Source of the DNA: Ascidia mentula
Taxonomy: Eukaryota > Chordata > Ascidiacea > Phlebobranchia > Ascidiidae
Length of the DNA stretch: 64,000 nt
Direction: 5' to 3'
NCBI GenBank assembly: GCA_947561715.1
Contig: OX387204.1
Coordinates: forward strand, 3,787,001 to 3,851,000
In this document: piece after piece, positions 24 through 11,590 of the stretch
How the letters are laid out: every line of letters starts with the position of its first letter
Numbering within the stretch: the stretch's first letter is position 1
The notes under the pieces: model-generated
Database searches by the model: none
Told to the model about the DNA's origin: nothing
The model's input: the letters and a program-made list of their open reading frames with translations, nothing else
Program-made: the position numbers and the translations under genes

Positions 24-3000
24 CAGAATGTCGTCGATCATGAAGTTTAGAATATCGATAATATGCATAACACGGAGGTGTTTTTCCACCGCTTGTGGCG
101 CACTTGAGTCGGGTTGAAACAAACGTTTTATCGTCTGCTGAGTTGGAATGTTCATGTTTTCAACTCCACCACACCTGGACGAATTGGTTTTGTGTCGCAT
201 TTTATTCGATATAGGTGGAATTTGCCGATTTCCTTTCTTTCAAACAACAGCAACAATCGTACAAATAAGATTAGAGCCCTTGTATGGATTTTGTGAGTTG
301 CAAGATCGTCCACATGGTCGCACCAAGCTGCACTGATGAGACCTTATAGGCCAAAACTGTATGGAGCTCACAAAACATTAGGAATTATGTGAATACGCAT
401 GACTTAAGCCAAATGTTGGGATTTTTATTTTTCTCTTCAGTTTTAACGTCTTTCTCGAAAGAAAAGCTCCTTTTTGTGATTTGGAAGTTAGTAGCCACGC
501 ACATATCCATTACATTTGTGTTTGTTACCAACCACACTGTCACTGATGTCTTGGAATTCAACTCCCTGTTAAGCTTCTCTGACAGGGAGATAATTTGTTT
601 CACGCCGTTGTTTCGATCGGGAAGACATGCAACTATCAATTCCACTGCTATGTTGATCTCCCTTTTGCCTGTTTAAACACGTGTTTTTGATCATGTACTT
701 CGACAACGACATTTCTATACACCCACCCACAGGGTGATTGTTCCGTGTTCACATGGTGTGCATTTTGTTGAGTTTAAGTTGGTAATATTGTTCGAAATAT
801 CTTCAGCGCAAAAGAGCTGATAATTGTACAAATAATTTATCGTTTGGGTAGAAATAAACAATGACGTCATTGGTAATTTATTGACCACCTGTTTAATTTT
901 GTGTTGAAACCTGGGTTTTTGGCATGATTAAACCTAAAATAAACTTGTAAAATTCTGCAATTCCGTTGTCAGAATTCAAAGAGTTCAATTTTAATCCCAG
1001 AAAACAAACGACTTCACCCTCTGCAATAATATTCGCCATGTTTGTATGATTACCTACCTGCGTGGTTTCTGAGGATTGTTGATATTTCGCTTCCCAGCTC
1101 TTCGACTTTAATTGTTGAATTCTCACCGTCGCATCCTCCCTTGTATGTTAAACCGGAGAACCGAAACTTGGACGTTGTGTTGGTGACGTCACACACCACC
1201 GTCCACTTCCCTTCCACTGTTTTCGGCTTCGCGACCTTTGTAGCTCCTAAAATACTCGTTTTGTTCTTATTATAGTGACATAATGTGTGTCATTGACATG
1301 GTTTTGGAAGTCAAATTGTCACGCAATGGACAGTCCAGAAAAAGAATATCGTCTGTAGTTAAGCTTTATAGTTACGTTTTGTGAAACTTGGTTACATTTT
1401 TTGAAACAGTCACTACTTTCTGCAGTCAATAAACGCTTTAAATTGCACAGTGTCTGTTGTATTTCAAATGCAAATCAACCTCCTCCGTTCAGATAGAGTT
1501 TTTCGTATGTTTGATATCCGAGACAAATTTCCGCTTTGTCGTTTTCCTTCGCTCTCAACAGATGCTTTGTCTTGTAAACTTCATCATTAGTAGCAAAACC
1601 TGACGGTGTCAAACCTAGAACTCCTAAATTTTACGATAAACAAGAGTTCAGACTTTTGAAATTAAGTTCCGCATCTTACCGGTCATTCTGTTACTGGCGA
1701 ATGTTTTTGTTTGACTTTGTTGTTCTCCGGCTACATTTTTGTCTTCTTCTTCTGATTCAAATGAAACCAGACTTTTCTTGGTTAACTTAGGAGATCGACT
1801 CTTGCTGTTGCTTCTCAGAAGCTACAACAAAACACCAATGGCACAGTCAGACGCAAAAAATTTGACCGACCGCAATTTATGTGTAAAGAATATTTTTCGC
1901 GGTTTTGTATTTTTATTATTGGTTTTCTTAAAACCGTTGCTGTTAAATCAATTGTAAGTATGATCGGGGCTCGAACCACCAACCTTTCGCATCTCCTGTC
2001 GCAATCCCACGACGTATTGGTCACGCTCGTAGATACCGTTGTTCACGTGATCAGCCAGGGACGTCATGTTAATTTGAAAGGCGTTGAACAATATGAAGTG
2101 AGCTGCATTGATCATTGTTTGGTCACAAGTAACCGACACGTTTCGTACTTTCTCCAAGCCGCGAAATGCAAGTCCTTGTATATCACTATAATGTTGGGGA
2201 AAAAAATAAACTTTGAATTCTATTTGGCACTTCATGCGCCTGTCGTGTCGGTGTCACCATCGTATTTGTGGATATCTTTAGCGATTCGTGTATATTTTTC
2301 TGCAACCACCTATGGCATGCCGTAGAAAAACATAAAAAAGGAAACTTGCCAGATGCAATCTCTAATCGCTTCCCGGATTATGTCTTCCACGGCAAGAACC
2401 TGAAGTTTAATGCCAGCTCTGTGGAGATTTGTGAGCGCCCTCTGGTTCACATAGTGGCATGGATGAGCGTATGATACACGGAAAACCGCACTCTGTCCGA
2501 CTTTGGCCCTCAACTGACGGTAAACTTGAGTAAACTGCTCAGCGCTGATTATGCTGAGACTCTTGTTGACGATAATCTGTGCGGTAAAGCATCGGTTTTG
2601 CATAAAAGTCAACCGTTGCGCTGTTTTGTAAATAAGAGAGCTGTGAGTCGTCGACAGTTTAATTTCTACTGAGTTTTGTCTTGTTGTTGGCCATTTTTCA
2701 AAAATATGCACATTTTTAAATATATTTCATCATCCTTGGGCTATACTGTGACACCATGAACAACAACAACAACAACAACAGTTATAGTACTAAACCTTGC
2801 GAAACACAAGCGCGTATAAGTATGTACGTTGGACCACAACGCATTTCACCTACATTAACAGCACAGTCCTTTTTAGCCCATGGTCGATCGTCCGACAAAA
2901 TCGCTTTGAGATCTTTTGCCACCTGAAGTTCTGCATTTTCCCCTTTGTTCTCTCCCCCTCGTAATACCTTGCTGAACCTGAGGACGTAGAATGCGTTGTA

Positions 3001-6000
3001 ATTAATCCCACACTACACTGCGCTTGACTCACCGCAGTTGGCCGTCGTACATTAGATCGCACTTCACTATGATTCTACTCGCGTTTACGTCACTCGTACT
3101 CGTTTCGAGAAAGAATTCTAAATACTCCTGAAGGTTGATGGTGGCTGGGTGCACCGTCTTGTTCATGCTGAAGGTTATTAGAAGTTCCCTGACAGAGGGA
3201 AGCTATAATGTGCGCCTGGTGCTCTTATAATTCGACTCTGCCACTCGGACTTTGTCGCTTGCGCGGCATTTCAAATTTAATTAATTCGGTCATGTTGGCG
3301 CACTTTGTATGCATAATTTAGGAGACGCGAAATTGCCTCTTCACTATTAAACCACCTTCTCCCTTGTGTTTGCTCATGTAAGAAAGCTGTCGTGTTGTTT
3401 TGTGTAATAGCAACGTATTGTAGTACCAAAATACTTTGATAAAGTACCTATATATACAAGGAGTATGGATGCAAACTGTATACTATATTAATACTGCATT
3501 AGCGGAACCAATCACATTCAAAGATAAAACAGTCGTTGTGCCGTGTTTCACAAGAGTGTTCAATCCCTATGCATTGTATAACCACCGCACGGTATCTTCT
3601 CTCTCTCGAAATCATCGCAAATCATTTTTTGTTGTAGAACAAGATACTTGTCAGTCAGTTAAATCGGAGTAATCGTCGGCGAACTCGGTGTTCATTGAAT
3701 AAGTCTTCCCGCTTCCAGTTCGTATTCTTATCGCCTTGTTTAAAATTCCGAGTGCTCCGGACACAGATGCCTTATCCACGCGAAGATTCGCTCCTCTTCC
3801 GAAGTCTACCTCTTCCAGGCGGTTCATGTTGTCTTCCAAGTCCTCCAGCATGTCAAACAGGATGTCTTGCATATGAATGCACTCAGTGGTGACCCCGACT
3901 CTATCGATGCCGTTGACGTTATTCAAGGGTGCAGTTTGCTCGTTCAGGTTCATTGCGAAACGGATGCGTGTTTCAATGTGCACCTGTGTTAGAAGCGTCT
4001 TTTAAGGTTGGCGCATATGTTTTGGACTGGATTCAATTGAAAAGATGTTTAAATTCGGACCAATGGCGTTATTTAAAGCTATGGTCATATTTGCAGCTGC
4101 TGCGTGGTGGTTATAACTTCCCTATGTTAGCGAAAATGTAGCTTAAAGAAACTCTGATCTGAAATTACCGAAATGTCACTTTTTTAAATGTACCTTGTCA
4201 AGGGCAGCCTCTTTCACTTTCCGTGCGAGTTTTTCATGCAGAGCTCGGACAGTAAGGTTCCAGTCCATGCGGTCCGGATATTCGCTCACCACCGCCGTTA
4301 TTCCCACCAATATCTCGTCACTGTCCACCAGTTCGCTCATTGTGACGTTTTCGCCAATCTGAGTGAAAATAATGAAGTTTTATTGGCAACGCCATCTTGT
4401 TTTTAGTGAATTATTCATGTCCGCTAGAACGGCGTCTTTCTTAATGAGGTTGTTTTGACTGCAAACTTTGCAAAGGTTGTTAAACCTCCACTTCACACGA
4501 AGAGTTTTGACAACCATCGTCCTGTCGGTCGATTGTTTGGGTTTGAATTTTACAAAAATGTTGAAACGAAGTTCGGGCCAGTTGAAAATTATTATGTACG
4601 CGATCAACCTCGTGTATAGCAGCACATGCTGAGTGAAATAGCGCAATATTCACAACGCCCATGATTCTTGACGCATAAATATTGGTAAAATAACACTAAC
4701 CAGGCGCCAGATGGTGTCAGTCAGCGGTTGAAGTTGAGTTTTTGTGTTGAGTGGATCCCGCACCTGTGTGTTGTTTCTTCCATGCTTGGACGCCTTTGGT
4801 CCGGGCACGTTGTAAACTCGCACGAACAACTGTTGATCCTGTGTATTGTTGCTGGTGTTAAAACCACGCGAACTCCCCCCTTTGTCAACCCGTATTGTTG
4901 GGTACGAACACAAGGAAAAGACGTTTAAAAAACAACAGTGTGTTCGGCATCCACGTAGAACTTGTACTCACAAGTTGCGCATTCATCTAATTATAATAGG
5001 TTGGCCAAAATATACGGCTTTATGGTAAGCCACGTATATACATGATGCACTTAGGTGTGTTTTGAAACTCCGTCCAGGCAGTTCCGTATGCATTATTTAG
5101 GGTTTGGCCAGTTTGGTCATGTTAAGTATATCGCAATTACCCCAATACCTGTGACACCCCATCGCTGCTCTTTGATAGATCGACTTTTAGTTTGACCCAA
5201 ATCTCGTCGCTGTTCTGTAGCAGGAAATAATCCCGGTATGTAGCGAGTGAGAAGCTGGTCGCGTCTTCGACAACTTTCCTTGAGTGGTTCTGGATGCGAT
5301 TCTGGTACCCTAAAACATTTTTCCTACATGTTCAATTTCGATTTTTTCCATGCTTGCAGCCGACACTGTCAAACGGTATCGACAATGTTTGTAAGATAGA
5401 AGTGATCGTCATTCATCATCGCACCCATTTTGTTCATTACTCATCTCTTACCACATATCTCATGCAGCTTTTCCACGTTGTCCTGGAAATAGAAATCGCT
5501 TTTAACGTTGATCGCGTCACGAAATCTCGAGGCAGCGCGTTTCAGCATATTGTAGTTGATCACAATGGTCCCTCTGCTGGTTTGCAGCTCGTCCAGTGTT
5601 TCAAGCGTATCTTGTACGTCGTTCAGCATCATGTTGATTCCCTGCTGCAAGCTGTAGCAAAAGTTGCCTTTGTTCAGTACAGTGATTCCCAACCTTTTTG
5701 TGGTTGCGTACCACTTGGGAGGTCAAATAATTTTGACGCGTACCACCTAGAGTGTTTCAAAGTAACCTAGGGGGTGAAGTAACTAACGTTTTGAGAACTC
5801 TTACGCTTTTTTAAACTCGAACTCAAACTGCAAATTAAGGGAAAGGTGCTCGCGTACCACCTGGAATGCCGTCGCGTACCACCGTTTGGAAAACACTGTT
5901 TTCGTATGTGATGCCCAACTGAAGCTTGGTACATATTATTTGATATTCTGCTTTGCTGCCAGCATGAAAGTGCTTTGGCATGCGTATGATTCAAGTTACC

Positions 6001-9000
6001 CACTTTTTTAAGGCTTGTAAATGATTGAGATGGTTCTGTCTCTGTGTTCGCTCGACATAAACCGTTGAAGGTTTTGCATAAAACCTATACTAATTGCGGT
6101 TAGGCGGTACTTACTCAAGGGGTTTCAACTTGATTCCTTTTGTGAAAAGACTTTGTAGCCCTTCCTTGTTGTATTTGTTATCCCACGAATAAGGGTGGGC
6201 GAAGGTAAATTGCACCGAGATCCTGATAGAGTTCCTCTTGCAATGATCCAACAGACGCTAAACAAACAAAGCAGTTTTGTGGTCATATCCCCAGCAAACA
6301 CCCCATCTTTCACACTTGTAAGCTTGATTTTTTTATCTCTATCAGTCAAAACACACACACACACAGACACACGCACAGACACACGCACCGATAAGCGCAG
6401 ACGAAGTTGTCGCGTTTTTAGTACAGTCAATATCGCCCACCTGCAGCTCTTCGGATCCAACGTTGCTCGGACTTCGGCTGGCGAGAATCTCAACGCTCAC
6501 TGAACAGTTCCGTGGTAACCTTTCGTCGTTGTCAACCTCCCTCGTGTTTCCACCTCGCCTTAATCCAGCACCGTTTGACGGGTTCCCTGTAACATAAATT
6601 GTTTTCATTCGCTGGATCCTTGATTTTACCAGAATCTATCATTCGACTGAGCATTGTCATTACTACCAGCGGCACCAATTTATTCCGAAAGGAAGTCAAT
6701 AATTTTAAATTTTCAAGTTTCAGGTTGAAGTCAGGTGGTTTTATTATACACACTGAAAAATCGATTTCTTTTGCACGGGCATCCTCAGTTTCTTATTCAA
6801 ATAGAATTGTTGTCATTTATATACCCTAAAACTCATGGTTCAGCATTTCATTCCGTTATTAATGAGGAAGCCACATAATAGACAATTTAGGTGCAAAAGT
6901 GTGCAACATTTTATCGTAATGCAACTCAAAATCTGTTTGTTTTGGTGCTAGTTTTGTTGTTTGCATGGGATATGCACAGCATTTAGTACGTCCTTTATGA
7001 CGTTGCACACCTGGCAAAACGCTGACTACATACCCTATTCTTGAAACATCCCTATTACTAGTATGCCCTGGCATATTACTCCTTTTCCACTTCAGTAAAC
7101 GCGTTACCCACCCGCGCTTCCAGTCATATCATGTACAAACTCCGAGACCGGATCGATGTTTTTTGATGCGGCGATTTTCCTGCTGTAAATTACTTCATCC
7201 GTGCCATCGGGGCCGGTCTTGTACACTGTGGCAAGCAGCATGCGTTGCTGTGTCGATTTCGTCTCTTTCACATCCTGCGACTTGATTTCTGCCGCCGCTT
7301 GGTGCTCGCTTGGTTTCAGGAGATAATATTTCAAGTACTCGTCTATTCCGAGCGTAGCCGCCATGCGTGGTTTCGCTATTGCGGTGGAACTACAAAAAAA
7401 AGTATTTAGTAAAACAAAGAAAATAACATCTGTATGCAGCTTACACAAAAAAATAACATTTTGTGACTGATTTTAAGCCATTTGGGCGTTTTCATGAGTT
7501 TCATTGTCACTCTTTGCCATTCGATTAAATTTAAACTTTTTTTGTTTCGCGTTTAAGATTTGTCAAACTTGAGAAGAAATGAAGTTTAATTCAAACAAAC
7601 CGAAGCTTTTTGACTATCCCTTGTTACCAGTCCCTGAATACGTTCTATGTTTTATAATGCAACGTTAAAATTCACACTAACTTATAGCATATACGTGACA
7701 CAACTAAGCTGCGTGCGCAACACAGATTAAAACCTTCCCTTTACACATAGAGACTATTTCGCTACTTCTAATACTTAAAATGCGTTAGGAAAGGCTTAGG
7801 GTTAGAAGGTCCTTAACCAACCCGGCGTACCTTATAGCGCAACTGTAATATTAGAGGGTTGCGTGCCACAACTTCCTTGCTAGATTTCTTAGCGCAAGGA
7901 AACCTGCCTTTTATGCTAAAAGTCTCCAATCGCTCTACCTGAAGTCAGACTTAACTGTGCTTGTTTTCTCCAAGCTGCCACTAAGCCTGGTTGTACTTTC
8001 GCTTCCAACTGCACCCCAATATTCATGTAACTTGTGTTTGGATTAGGACGATGTCGGACCCGCTGATCTGAGCTTCCCGTGAATGTTCGTTAATGATTTG
8101 CTGAGACGACTTGGCCCGAGGTGGCGGCGTACTATATACCCTGACGGCGTAAACGTGTATAAATAAATTTAGGTCCTCATCCTTTGCACTGGCAACGTGC
8201 CCGTCGCTTTTATCTTTCTAACGCAAAACAGGGCAGTAACTTCTATCTTGCATGTACTTAAGTATTTTGCACGTTTTTGTTATTATTTTAAATCTTAAGG
8301 TTTCTACCTAATATAATTTTTAGCTGTCTCGGCACCCGGTTTCACAGCTGAAACTTATTGATAGTTTGACGTAAGGTACAAGACACAAAAATAAAATCCA
8401 CAGGAAATCTACAAGTCGTCAATGCAACGAAATCCTCCTGCTGTAATCACAACTTTGCCAACACTGTCTGGCGTTAATTCAAAAGCACTGCAAGACGCAA
8501 GCATTTACTTTAGCGCACAAAAGCTCTACGCCCTGTCCTTCCAGTAATGCGATAATGGTTTGGGCCTTCACAGCTTGCCACCCGCTGTGCTCGGTTCGAT
8601 TTTTCCTTCTCACGGTTTATTGTTGTCTGATTTCTCGCTACTTTGCTCTACTTTCTCCGGGGCCAACCGGATGCTGTGGTAAATTTGTATTGTAGTTAGC
8701 CACCGTGCCATGGCGAGGAAGGTTTGGTTTACCTTTCATGGCTAAATAAGCAATCAACGAACGAACTGTCGCTTTTTCCGATAGCGTTAAAAACAATAAC
8801 GTCCAAAAAAACGAAATTCCTACAAACTTTCTTCATGTTTGAAGTTATTACATACGTCACAATCTTACTACACTGCGTCAAATATCCCCACAACTACGTC
8901 TCTACAGCACCTTTCGCCAACTGTAGGCGCCGAACGTGTGTAACAACCGACATGTGGCGTCCGTCTTGTGCCGTAATAATCCCATTCTTTTCATATTTTT

Positions 9001-9217
9001 CTCGATTTGTTTGAAGCGTTCTATTATCATGGCGCGATTTCTGTAAGGCCGTCATCGACTTATTTCATTCATTCCCTGTTTGTCGAGTCGCGCCGTTGGT
9101 GTTTATCTGCGTAGTTCGTCGTTTGCGCTTTGAAGCCGCATGACTCGACAGGCCACAATGGGTTGGCTGGTATGAGAGCGCGAGCGGTTATTTTCATCCA
9201 ACTTACCATTTCGACAT
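24..9217 (-). CDS. Large unrecognised gene of repeated alpha/beta plus helical modules (5' part; runs off left edge)
   Basis: I do not recognise this gene by name. Exons that join in phase are 9217-9207 (tentative start ATG), 7389-7112, 6586-6441, 6257-6115, 5651-5452, 5309-5149, 4838-4701, 4628-4497, 4358-4194 and 3983-about 3700. Less certain exons follow at about 3202 (or 3167)-3033, 2930-2860, 2680-2350, 2185-1984, 1623-1482, 1246-1058, 668-about 440 and 137-24. About 1000 residues are visible. The product is four copies of an alpha/beta domain of roughly 190 residues separated by helical stretches of 65-90 residues. No signal peptide or clear membrane segment is seen at the inferred start (MSKCSTAIAK). 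Each alpha/beta copy begins with a short helix of related pattern (EYLKYYLL, TYRDYFLL, EYLEFFLE, TYEKLYLN). Predicted element order is that of the cytidine deaminase fold, without its zinc ligands. The repeat is seen directly; the fold assignment is inference. Exon borders from 3.2 to 1.0 kb are the weakest. Confidence 0.7.
318..372. repeat. Dispersed repeat fragment, copy A
   Basis: Counterpart of the stretch at 15955-16016, here in an intron of the unrecognised minus-strand gene. Class of element not determined. Confidence 0.5.
390..1623 (-). other. Alpha/beta repeat 4 of the unrecognised gene
   Basis: Exons near 1623-1482, 1246-1058 and 668-about 440. Elements: helix LGYQTYEKLYLNGG, strand KWTVVCDVTN, strand KFRFSGLTYKGG, a helix starting VEELGSEISTIL, strand INIAVELIVACLP, then DRNNGVKQIISLSEKL, strand SVTVWLVTNTNV. 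The ACLPDRNNGV stretch sits where an active deaminase would have SPCxxC. The next exon (137-24) begins the fourth helical module, with the peptide MHIIDILNFMIDDIL, before the window ends. Confidence 0.5.
2350..3202 (-). other. Alpha/beta repeat 3 of the unrecognised gene
   Basis: Exons near 3202-3033, 2930-2860 and 2680-2350. The clearest parts are helix INLQEYLEFFLE, strand SRIIVKCDLMYDG, strand CFTAQIIVNKS, helix SAEQFTQVYRQLRAK, strand SAVFRVSYAHPCH, helix VNQRALTNLHRAG, strand IKLQVLAVED and a following helix. YAHPCHYVNQRALTNLHRAG matches repeat 1 FAHPYSWDNKYNKEGLQSLF closely in pattern. The middle exon is uncertain because two frames give plausible peptides. Confidence 0.5.
2757..2780. 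repeat. AAC trinucleotide microsatellite
   Basis: About seven AAC units in an intron or exon border area of the unrecognised minus-strand gene. Confidence 0.9.
4194..5309 (-). other. Alpha/beta repeat 2 of the unrecognised gene
   Basis: Four exons (5309-5149, 4838-4701, 4628-4497, 4358-4194), all joined at phase 0. The module has helix SLATYRDYFLLQ, strand QQLFVRVYNV, a helix ending LTDTIWRL, strand LRFNIFVKFK, then KQSTDRTMVVKTLR, strand ILVGITAVVSEYP and helix WNLTVRALHEKL. It aligns element by element with repeat 1. The intron after VVKTLR falls where repeat 1 has its intron after SEELQ. No cysteine pair is present at the position of the deaminase zinc ligands. Confidence 0.55.
5452..5651 (-). 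other. Helical module 1 between alpha/beta repeats
   Basis: One exon with good acceptor and donor, in phase with its neighbours. It encodes a predicted alpha-helical stretch starting LQQGINMMLNDVQDTLETL. Related stretches occupy the same place after the other repeats: 3983-about 3700 (MQDILFDMLEDLEDNMNRLE), 2185-1984 (DIQGLAFRGLEKV, then a hydrophobic helix) and 137-24. Alternation of these with the alpha/beta modules is what defines the repeat unit. Confidence 0.55.
5680..5898. mobile_element. Short hAT-like MITE
   Basis: A 219-base element starts CAGTGATTCCCAACC and ends with the near inverse GTTTGGAAAACACTG, the terminal inverted repeat style of hAT-superfamily non-autonomous elements. 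The motif gcgtaccac occurs four times inside. The flanking 8-mers (gttcagta, ttttcgta) match at only 5 of 8 positions, so the target duplication has decayed. It lies in the intron just upstream of the exon at 5651-5452. Confidence 0.65.
6115..7389 (-). other. Alpha/beta repeat 1 of the unrecognised gene
   Basis: Three exons (7389-7112, 6586-6441, 6257-6115) join in phase. Reading order: helix LGIDEYLKYYLLK, strand RMLLATVYKT, strand EVIYSRKIAA, helix DPVSEFVHDM, strand CSVSVEILAS, then SPSNVGSEELQRLLDH as a turn and helix, strand ISVQFTFAHPY, helix NKEGLQSLFTKG and strand IKLKPL. In AID/APOBEC proteins the segment at SPSNVG is SPCxxC, and the helix after the second strand begins with HxE; here they read SPSNVG and IDPVS. 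The segment FAHPYSWDNKYNKEGLQSL has the shape of the APOBEC segment with aromatic residues followed by xxGLxSL. Confidence 0.6.
6352..6388. repeat. AC dinucleotide microsatellite
   Basis: An (AC)n tract with interruptions, in the intron between exons 6586-6441 and 6257-6115 of the unrecognised gene. Confidence 0.9.
7390..9206. other. Long putative first intron
   Basis: No convincing exon of either strand was found here. On the minus strand it would be the first intron of the unrecognised gene if the tiny first exon at 9217-9207 is right. It could also hide 5' exons of HMMR on the plus strand. Confidence 0.35.
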
Positions 9218-9789: not shown

Positions 9790-11590
9790 GTTTTCGCAAG
9801 AGCGCGACGCGGAGTTGAAAACGTTGAAAGAAGAGCTTGAAAATGTCGCCTCCTCTTTTGGTGAATACAGCCTGTTTTCAATTAACCGCTTTGTTATTTC
9901 AAGCCACGCTGTGTAGTATTTGCCGCCTTCCAGTGTTTTGATATCTCACTTCTCGCTTTTTGAACGGACAGAAAGCGAAAGGGAACAGAGAGCAAGTTTG
10001 GACGAGCGCCTGACGGAATATTCAGAAACGAATAAAGCACTTCAGCGTGAAGTGGGGGAATTGAGCCACTCCAGGGATGAATTAAAAACCAACTTAAACA
10101 AAGCTGAGGTATCACAACCTGGACCCCAAATTTACCACTTTTTTGCGCTCCCTGGCTCTAATATTTTTGCACACTTTTCAAAGTTAACAAATGCATTTGG
10201 GTAAAGTCTGGCCTGTGTCTTTGAAAACTGTTTTCTAAAATTTAAATAATGTAGTGTCATGATTTTTCTAAACTTCACAGATTGAAATTGAGAAGCTAAG
10301 CAGTAAGGACTCTGATAACTCAAGCCAACTTTCATATCTGGAAGCAGAAAACAATGCACTTCACGACAGAATGTCTGAAATGGTCACAGAACTCAGCCAG
10401 TATGTCATAAAAATTTTGCAATATGCATAGCAAATTCTGTAACTATCGCTGAATAAAATATAAATTTTTGTAAATTTTGTAGACGCAAGGCAGATCTAAC
10501 TGCTGTCGAGGAAAGTGTTGATGCCATGAGACTTGATGCAGAAAAATCCAAATACTTAGCCCAAGAAAGACTCGAAAATGAGAGATCTCTGCAAACAACC
10601 ATTGATATGCTCAAACAAACAGCAGATGAAGCACAGAGTGCCAACCAGGCCAAACTGAATGAATTTACAAGGTTTGGTGAATGCTAATGTGGTTTAACTT
10701 TGCATGGCAAATATAAAATTGGTTTCTTTTTTGTAGAAGAATACTGGAAACACAGAAGAAGCTTAATCAAAGAGACAGCGACCTAAAAAGTGCAAAAGAA
10801 GACATCCAGCGTGCAAGAAGTGAATTACAAGAGAGAGACAATCTGCATCAAAAAGTTTTAACTGAACAAAAACAGCAAATAAACAAGTGAGTGTGGAATT
10901 ATTGTTGTGGTGTCCTGTTTTTGCACTAGCTAGGGTTTTCATTTTCAGGTTGCTGACAAACAACGCCCAGTTGCAAGAAAAGTTGACGACGACTGAAATT
11001 AGTTTGGAAGAACTCAGCACCAGGCCTGCACCTGAGATGGACGAGTCAGAAATAATCAGGTAATCGTTAGGTTTTGGGAAAAAAAAAACATGGAATTCTG
11101 ACACATTGAATTTAATATCAGGTGGAAATCATTGTATGAAGAATTGTTGGAAAAAGTGAAACCGTTTCAAGTGAGCGTAGTTTGTTCCACAAATAGAACA
11201 CAAATTGGAAAGTATTACACCTTCATTTTCAGAGTCAACTAGATGCATACTCGCATGAGAAGTCGATGCTTATGTGTGAGACGAGCGCTGCCCAGGCTGA
11301 ACTCTCACAACTGGGTAAAAAGTATGCTGAGCTACTCGGACACCAAAACCAGAAGCAAAAAATCAGACATGTCGTGAAAATCAAGGAGGAAAACCTGGGC
11401 CTGAAACAGGTTTGCTGACACTGTTTTGTAAAAAGCTTCCATGAAATAGTCAAAATTTGTTTAGGAAAACATGAAGTTGAAGAACCAAGTCAGTTCTTTA
11501 CAACGTCAGGTAATTGAAGGCAGAAAGACAAAGTTGGATCCCACTAAAGCATTTAACAACCAGAAAGAAAACACCAACCCTAACAAGTAG
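9790..11590 (+). CDS. HMMR: HMMR (RHAMM) homologue, C-terminal part
   Basis: Hyaluronan-mediated motility receptor is a coiled-coil protein of spindle and centrosome that binds microtubules and hyaluronan. Exons 9790-9860, 9972-10108, 10281-10399, 10483-10671, 10737-10886, 10949-11059, 11122-11170, 11233-11409 and 11465-11590 join in phase to about 375 residues ending in TAG. Nearly all of it is heptad-rich coiled coil. The identification rests on the C-terminus: KYAELLGHQNQKQKIRHVVK followed by an NxxLKxE-type segment and DPTKAFNNQKEN, which match the vertebrate HMMR end ([33 protein letters not shown]). The first exon seen begins mid-codon, so at least one upstream exon exists; I could not find a start or an N-terminal match. 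It converges on LRRC51. Confidence 0.88.

Follow-up and report, generated by a model that had tools for sequence, protein, structure and literature searches.

A tandem gene pair of the ascidian Ascidia mentula predicted to encode doubled, zinc-less AID/APOBEC-derived domains

The 64,000-nucleotide stretch of the Ascidia mentula genome analyzed here (the window; GenBank assembly GCA_947561715.1, contig OX387204.1, positions 3,787,001 to 3,851,000, forward strand) carries at its start, on the minus strand, two tandem genes, designated A and B. In the reading that we favor with moderate confidence, each encodes two domains derived from the AID/APOBEC family that lack the zinc motif and would not deaminate, the fold having been kept as a putative binding surface. 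Antibody diversification and antiviral editing both depend on AID/APOBEC enzymes, and tunicates are the sister group of the vertebrates. The finding would bear on the passage of AID/APOBEC through early chordates and gives a gene pair in that sister group. An original prediction, made from the DNA letters, had described a single gene of four divergent deaminase-like domains alternating with helical modules; all ten of the peptides that it quoted are found on the minus strand of the stretch.

The four units are numbered U1 and U2 in gene A and U3 and U4 in gene B, and the link to AID/APOBEC begins with unit 1 (201 residues). The best AID/APOBEC profile for this unit is Pfam APOBEC4 (PF18775), matched over unit residues 120–191 with an expectation value (E) of 3.2e-12 and 46.9 bits against a cut-off of 27.2; the next is APOBEC_N (PF08210) at E 3.1e-6 and 27.7 bits, with a cut-off of 25. 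Seven more AID/APOBEC families match below cut-off, and no other Pfam family matches at E<=10. When the whole of gene A is searched, seven of the eight Pfam families recovered are AID/APOBEC, the eighth being H-kinase_dim (0.009, below cut-off). Exon 4 of gene A by itself matches APOBEC4 over cut-off, unspliced in a six-frame genome search (32.9 bits, cut-off 27.2, E 1.2e-5), and scores again as a 48-residue peptide whose last residue comes from the join (2e-8). Judged by these curated profiles, unit 1 is AID/APOBEC-related. A profile of five AID/APOBEC sequences, compared by hhalign (150 shuffles per unit, Gumbel p), scores 24.9 with U1 (p 1.8e-3) and 25.8 with U3 (p 1.1e-3); the controls were an ADAT2-like sequence at 23.0 and a piece of HMMR at 13.9. 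Direct evidence for a relationship to AID/APOBEC therefore covers U1 and, more weakly, U3.

Units 2 and 4 are tied to AID/APOBEC because U1 aligns with U2 and U2 with U4, and because a profile of U1 and U3 matches a profile of U2 and U4. In direct Smith–Waterman comparisons (1,000 shuffles), U1–U2 scores 74 over about 155 residues and U1–U3 69, levels reached in 0/1000 shuffles, followed by U2–U4 at 54 (9/1000), U2–U3 at 46 (21/1000) and U3–U4 at 45 (31/1000); U1–U4, at 39 (162/1000), is not significant. The U1U3 profile scores 37.9 against the U2U4 profile, where 40 column shuffles gave a mean of 13.1 and a maximum of 17.8, and the matched columns run mostly from β4 through the helical part. 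As single-sequence profiles U2 and U4 score 29.5, above the maximum of 20.2 among 60 shuffles, and the four pairs other than U2–U4 and U1–U3 lie close to their nulls. By these comparisons the repeat of four related units is real. The four-way alignment bears out the description of in-phase exons yielding four related units, each with an alpha/beta part and then a helical part. The helical parts do follow as described, but each seems, from the alignment, to be the C-terminal portion of its unit rather than a separate module. The proposed pairing of LFVRVYNV with MLLATVYKT does not hold, since the partner of LFVRVYNV in the U1–U2 alignments is the FVHDMTG stretch.

The active-site motif of AID/APOBEC enzymes is given in the excerpted text of PMC8962628 as HxE-x23-28-Cx2-4C. 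In the whole sequences of proteins A and B there is no C-x(2-6)-C, and the sole HxE in either is an HIE at A395, within a strand of unit 2. Where AID has SWSPCYDC, profile alignment places SRSPSNVG in U1 and NKSLSIIS in U3, and in the four-way alignment the U1 segment is matched by SEYPDRMD (U2) and ACLPDRNN (U4); around HxE, which provides the first ligand, the alignment is poor. The zinc motif is thus absent from all four units, so that the known zinc-dependent chemistry is not expected, and any implication of an active deaminase in the original prediction is not supported. Because the defining motif was looked for and is missing, the genes are regarded as probably AID/APOBEC-derived and are not filed as member deaminases.

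The exons of both genes were joined by hand from the minus strand of the window and of the sequence beyond its start, whose coordinates carry the prefix L001. Across 19 exons, 1,067 codons stay open and in phase with no frameshift needed: gene A comprises 503 residues in nine exons, from 9217 to 3651, and gene B 564 residues in ten, from 3166 past the window start to L001:9662. The 17 joins all keep the phase, at 16 GT–AG introns and a single GC–AG intron that follows exon 3 of gene B. Open frames alone are weak proof, since both open frames and the repeat pattern guided the choice of exon ends. The structure is independently supported because the Pfam match of unit 1 spans the join of gene A exons 3 and 4, because the U1–U2 match crosses several joins, and because exon GC content exceeds that of introns (0.494 versus 0.407 in gene A, 0.451 versus 0.364 in gene B).

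Gene A opens with a short exon 1 (9207–9217; MSK.. start, in-phase GT–AG join), and its start is uncertain between 9217 and an exon 2 ATG near 7361. Exon 2 (7112–7389) holds the first part of unit 1, presumably α1, β1, β2 and α2, and can be aligned both with unit 2 and with the beginning of unit 3. Exon 3 (6441–6586) supplies β3 and the SRSPSNVG segment, exon 4 (6115–6257) α3-β4-α4-β5 (FTFAHPYSWDNKYNKEGLQSLFTKGIKLKPL), and exon 5 (5452–5651), placed by alignment, the C-terminal helical part. Unit 2 starts in exon 6 (5149–5309; ATYRDYFLL, DEIWVKLKVDLSKSSDGVSQ), identified by the U1–U2 alignment. It continues through exon 7 (4764–4838), with the strand LFVRVYNV and an end that is uncertain between 4764 and an alternative donor at 4701, and exon 8 (4194–4358), which supplies β3-α3, has SEYPDRMD in place of the zinc loop, and aligns with unit 1 and with exon 8 of gene B. 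Exon 9 (3651–3983) ends gene A with β4, β5, the helical part and the stop, as seen in the U2–U4 alignment.

In gene B, exon 1 (3033–3166) holds the ATG and the start of unit 3 (LQEYLEFFLE), exon 2 (2854–2977) runs from α2 (ENAELQVAKDL) up to β3, and exon 3 (2350–2576) from β3 to α5 (YAHPCHYVNQRALTNLHRAGIKLQVL); exon 3 shares 40% identity with exon 4 of gene A in an alignment that is misplaced in part. The helical part of unit 3 lies, by alignment, in exon 4 (1984–2185), and exon 5 (1680–1821) links units 3 and 4. Unit 4 begins in exon 6 (1480–1623; QTYEKLYLN), continues with what are presumably β1, β2 and α2 in exon 7 (1058–1246), then β3-α3-β4 with ACLPDRNN at the zinc-loop position in exon 8 (397–668) and β5 plus a helix in exon 9 (24–137). 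Exon 10 (L001:9662-9808) lies outside the window.

Four domains in one gene, as first described, are at odds with the reading frame, which closes at an in-frame TGA (3653–3651) and reopens at the ATG at 3166, 484 bases on; units 2 and 4, moreover, both reach a stop shortly after the same last helix. The layout is most likely a head-to-tail pair of genes with two units in each. The pairing of U1 with U3 and of U2 with U4, together with the common end of U2 and U4, fits duplication of a two-unit gene. Two scores run counter to such a history: the strongest raw alignment, U1–U2 at 74, lies inside gene A, and U1–U3, the next best pair among single-sequence profiles at 28.5, falls below the maximum of 29.5 among its 60 shuffles. 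An unlikely alternative, which touches only the layout and leaves the domain reading intact, is that splicing joins both genes in one four-unit message. Only 484 bases separate the genes, and position 3684 offers a weak donor (GTTCGC) whose phase agrees with that of an acceptor at 3188, itself preceded by a pyrimidine tract; this splice could fuse the four units and skip the TGA. Yet the new ATG after an in-frame TGA and the matching stops of units 2 and 4 argue for separate genes, and the donor scores −1.1 in a matrix built from the 16 GT donors of the hand-made models, of which 9/16 score at least 2.9 and 2/16 score lower (−1.3). Both genes are presumably expressed, each from its own message. 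At 3167–3188 on the minus strand, a good-looking 3′ splice site (ctctgtcag) stands 22 bases ahead of the gene B ATG and about 460 bases past the gene A stop. Spliced-leader trans-splicing of operons is known in ascidians, and the site could reflect an operon of that kind.

The two-gene reading suggests a course of events in which duplication of a two-unit gene probably produced the tandem pair. With no zinc or catalytic motif in any domain, deamination of cytidine by the known mechanism is not expected of the proteins. The fold would most likely have been kept as a surface for binding a partner protein or single-stranded nucleic acid, with roles in binding or dimerization for the second domain and the C-terminal helices. 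The isoelectric points, 5.9 for the acidic protein A and 9.2 for the basic protein B, would suit a guess that B touches nucleic acid and that A is its partner.

It is distinctly improbable, in our estimate, that the genes instead represent a decaying ascidian relative of APOBEC4 with no selected function, on the way to becoming pseudogenes. APOBEC4 is indeed the best profile for unit 1, the zinc motif is gone, and U1–U3 and U2–U4 are each only 23% identical in MAFFT alignments. Against decay, 1,067 codons remain open over 19 exons with in-phase splice sites, although open frames were a consideration in setting the exon ends, and exon GC content is higher than that of introns.

More doubtful still is the possibility that units 2–4, or all four units, are another alpha/beta domain and that unit 1's APOBEC score misleads. 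Several results nevertheless weigh against our assignment. The alpha/beta parts of units 2, 3 and 4 match no Pfam family at E<=10, the whole of gene B gives just two weak unrelated Pfam matches (0.029 and 0.18), and exons 1–3 of gene A with a little read-through, taken without exon 4, match no family at E<=0.01. The five-sequence profile does not single out U2 (17.3, p 0.06) or U4 (13.3, p 0.5), and a profile of the same five sequences with U1 and U3 added misses U2, U4 and U2U4 (13.1, 10.0 and 17.8). Direct alignments of all units with single AID, APOBEC2 and APOBEC3G sequences are weak. Sequence searches of the PDB returned nothing for U3 or for the U1U3 alignment, one unrelated entry at E 5 for U1, and two RFC5 entries at E 1.6 for the U2U4 alignment. 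Gene A matched 0 families in NCBIfam. Weak matches can mislead, as illustrated by L008, a 60-residue frame opposite a presumed Gemin7-like frame, which scores 0.001 with APOBEC4. The unit 1 match (3.2e-12) is far better than this false one and exceeds the curated cut-off in two models, gene A exon 4 by itself suffices for it, and the four units are related to one another. The AID/APOBEC-like character originally proposed thus stands for unit 1 through curated profiles, and extends to units 2–4 solely through homology among the units. The fold of units 2–4 we infer from that homology; folding, of single exons only, gave mean predicted local distance difference test (pLDDT) values of 46.4 for gene B exon 3 and 45.5 for gene B exon 8. 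Least credible is an active deaminase, or another enzyme with a remodeled metal site in the AID/APOBEC fold: U3 (NAE) and U4 (KVE) may retain a glutamate near the HxE position, in a poorly aligned region, but neither A nor B has a closely spaced cysteine pair to hold zinc.

Within the limits of searches run exon by exon, from which a diverged intact member could escape, the same 196-Mb genome (the window lies on its 19.7-Mb contig C72) yielded neither another copy nor any additional AID/APOBEC exon. Paralogue searches returned the genes' own exons for the parts taken from unit 2 (165 residues, 2/2 matches), unit 3 (184 residues, 3/3) and unit 4 (177 residues, 3/3); three of the four matches of the unit 1 part (139 residues) were also own exons, the fourth (C69, E 5.2) being read as chance. 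Genome profile searches gave 0 matches for APOBEC3 and for APOBEC_N, one for NAD1 (at 0.8) and four for APOBEC4, with just gene A exon 4 over cut-off. Of two matches to APOBEC2, the better (0.26) is a gene at L021:1345-1872 that carries HAE and PCxxC and was named ADAT2-like by eye. The APOBEC4 match at L008 (C67:8239493-8239588) was taken as chance; the frame opposite, which we take to be Gemin7-like, matches Gemin7 in Pfam at 0.053, below cut-off. The DNA pattern SWSPCxxC with near variants occurred 25 times versus 32 for a reversed control, none being AID/APOBEC-like by eye, and the 14 stretches of viral contigs that fit a short pattern include no relative. Control genomes gave no match over cut-off for these families and so do not prove the sensitivity of the searches; the ADAT2-like match supports it slightly. 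No report of a tunicate AID/APOBEC was found in the open-licence literature, as far as the excerpts of those papers extend, and the words "tunicate", "urochordate" and "Ciona" do not occur in the text of PMC5956068. We suggest tentatively that the only AID/APOBEC descendants left in this ascidian are these two tandem, zinc-free double pseudo-deaminases, whose fold lost catalysis, underwent doubling and persisted for binding, possibly with acidic A and basic B as a pair produced by a single locus.

Genes A and B lie antisense to a plus-strand HMMR gene, between its 5′ exon pieces (L001:5428-9129) and its 3′ exon pieces (9791–11587). Roughly hand-joined, the pieces match Pfam HMMR_N at 5.4e-25 and HMMR_C at 9.3e-37, and the interval from the last 5′ piece (to about L001:9129) to the first 3′ piece (window 9791) is taken as one HMMR intron of ~10.7 kb. 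Adjoining HMMR, on the plus strand at L001:1734-3256, are teneurin-like frames (TEN_YD-shell 1.7e-5, below cut-off) that end in a Tox-GHH domain (1.2e-20, over cut-off). The ascidian source assumed at the outset agrees with the mitochondrial COX1 open frame, which contains 18 AGR codons; of these, 16 lie beyond the start region, MSTNHKD. Several of the 18 fall at what we take to be glycines of the conserved motifs GGFGNWL, GGGGDP and LPGFG, and AGR is read as glycine in the ascidian mitochondrial code (table 13).

Among known systems, APOBEC3G has two AID/APOBEC-type domains per protein, as A and B probably do. Its domains keep H-x-E and PCxxC, whereas none of the four units does, and direct sequence similarity is weak. 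The invertebrate deaminases NAD1 and SNAD4 are matched by unit 1 at 6.6e-5 and 2.9e-4, below the curated cut-offs. According to the excerpts of PMC8962628, the sea urchin and Lingula family has enzymatic activities similar to those of the vertebrate one, in contrast to A and B, where the motif is missing; some sea urchin paralogues, however, were inactive in the assay used, as stated in the portion of PMC5956068 consulted. The closest comparison is with vertebrate APOBEC4, the best family for unit 1, which in the excerpted text of PMC4889046 shows no detectable deamination and binds single-stranded DNA weakly. The same excerpt mentions E95 and C134 mutants and describes a polylysine stretch along with a domain presumed to bind zinc, whereas A and B lack the zinc motif, have no four-lysine run (by eye) and contain two units per protein. 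APOBEC2 and APOBEC4 have no clear activity assigned, according to the excerpt of PMC5956068. If our reading is true, a tunicate with only zinc-free, doubled members would indicate that the fold can persist without catalysis, and would bear on why these two proteins have been assigned no clear activity.

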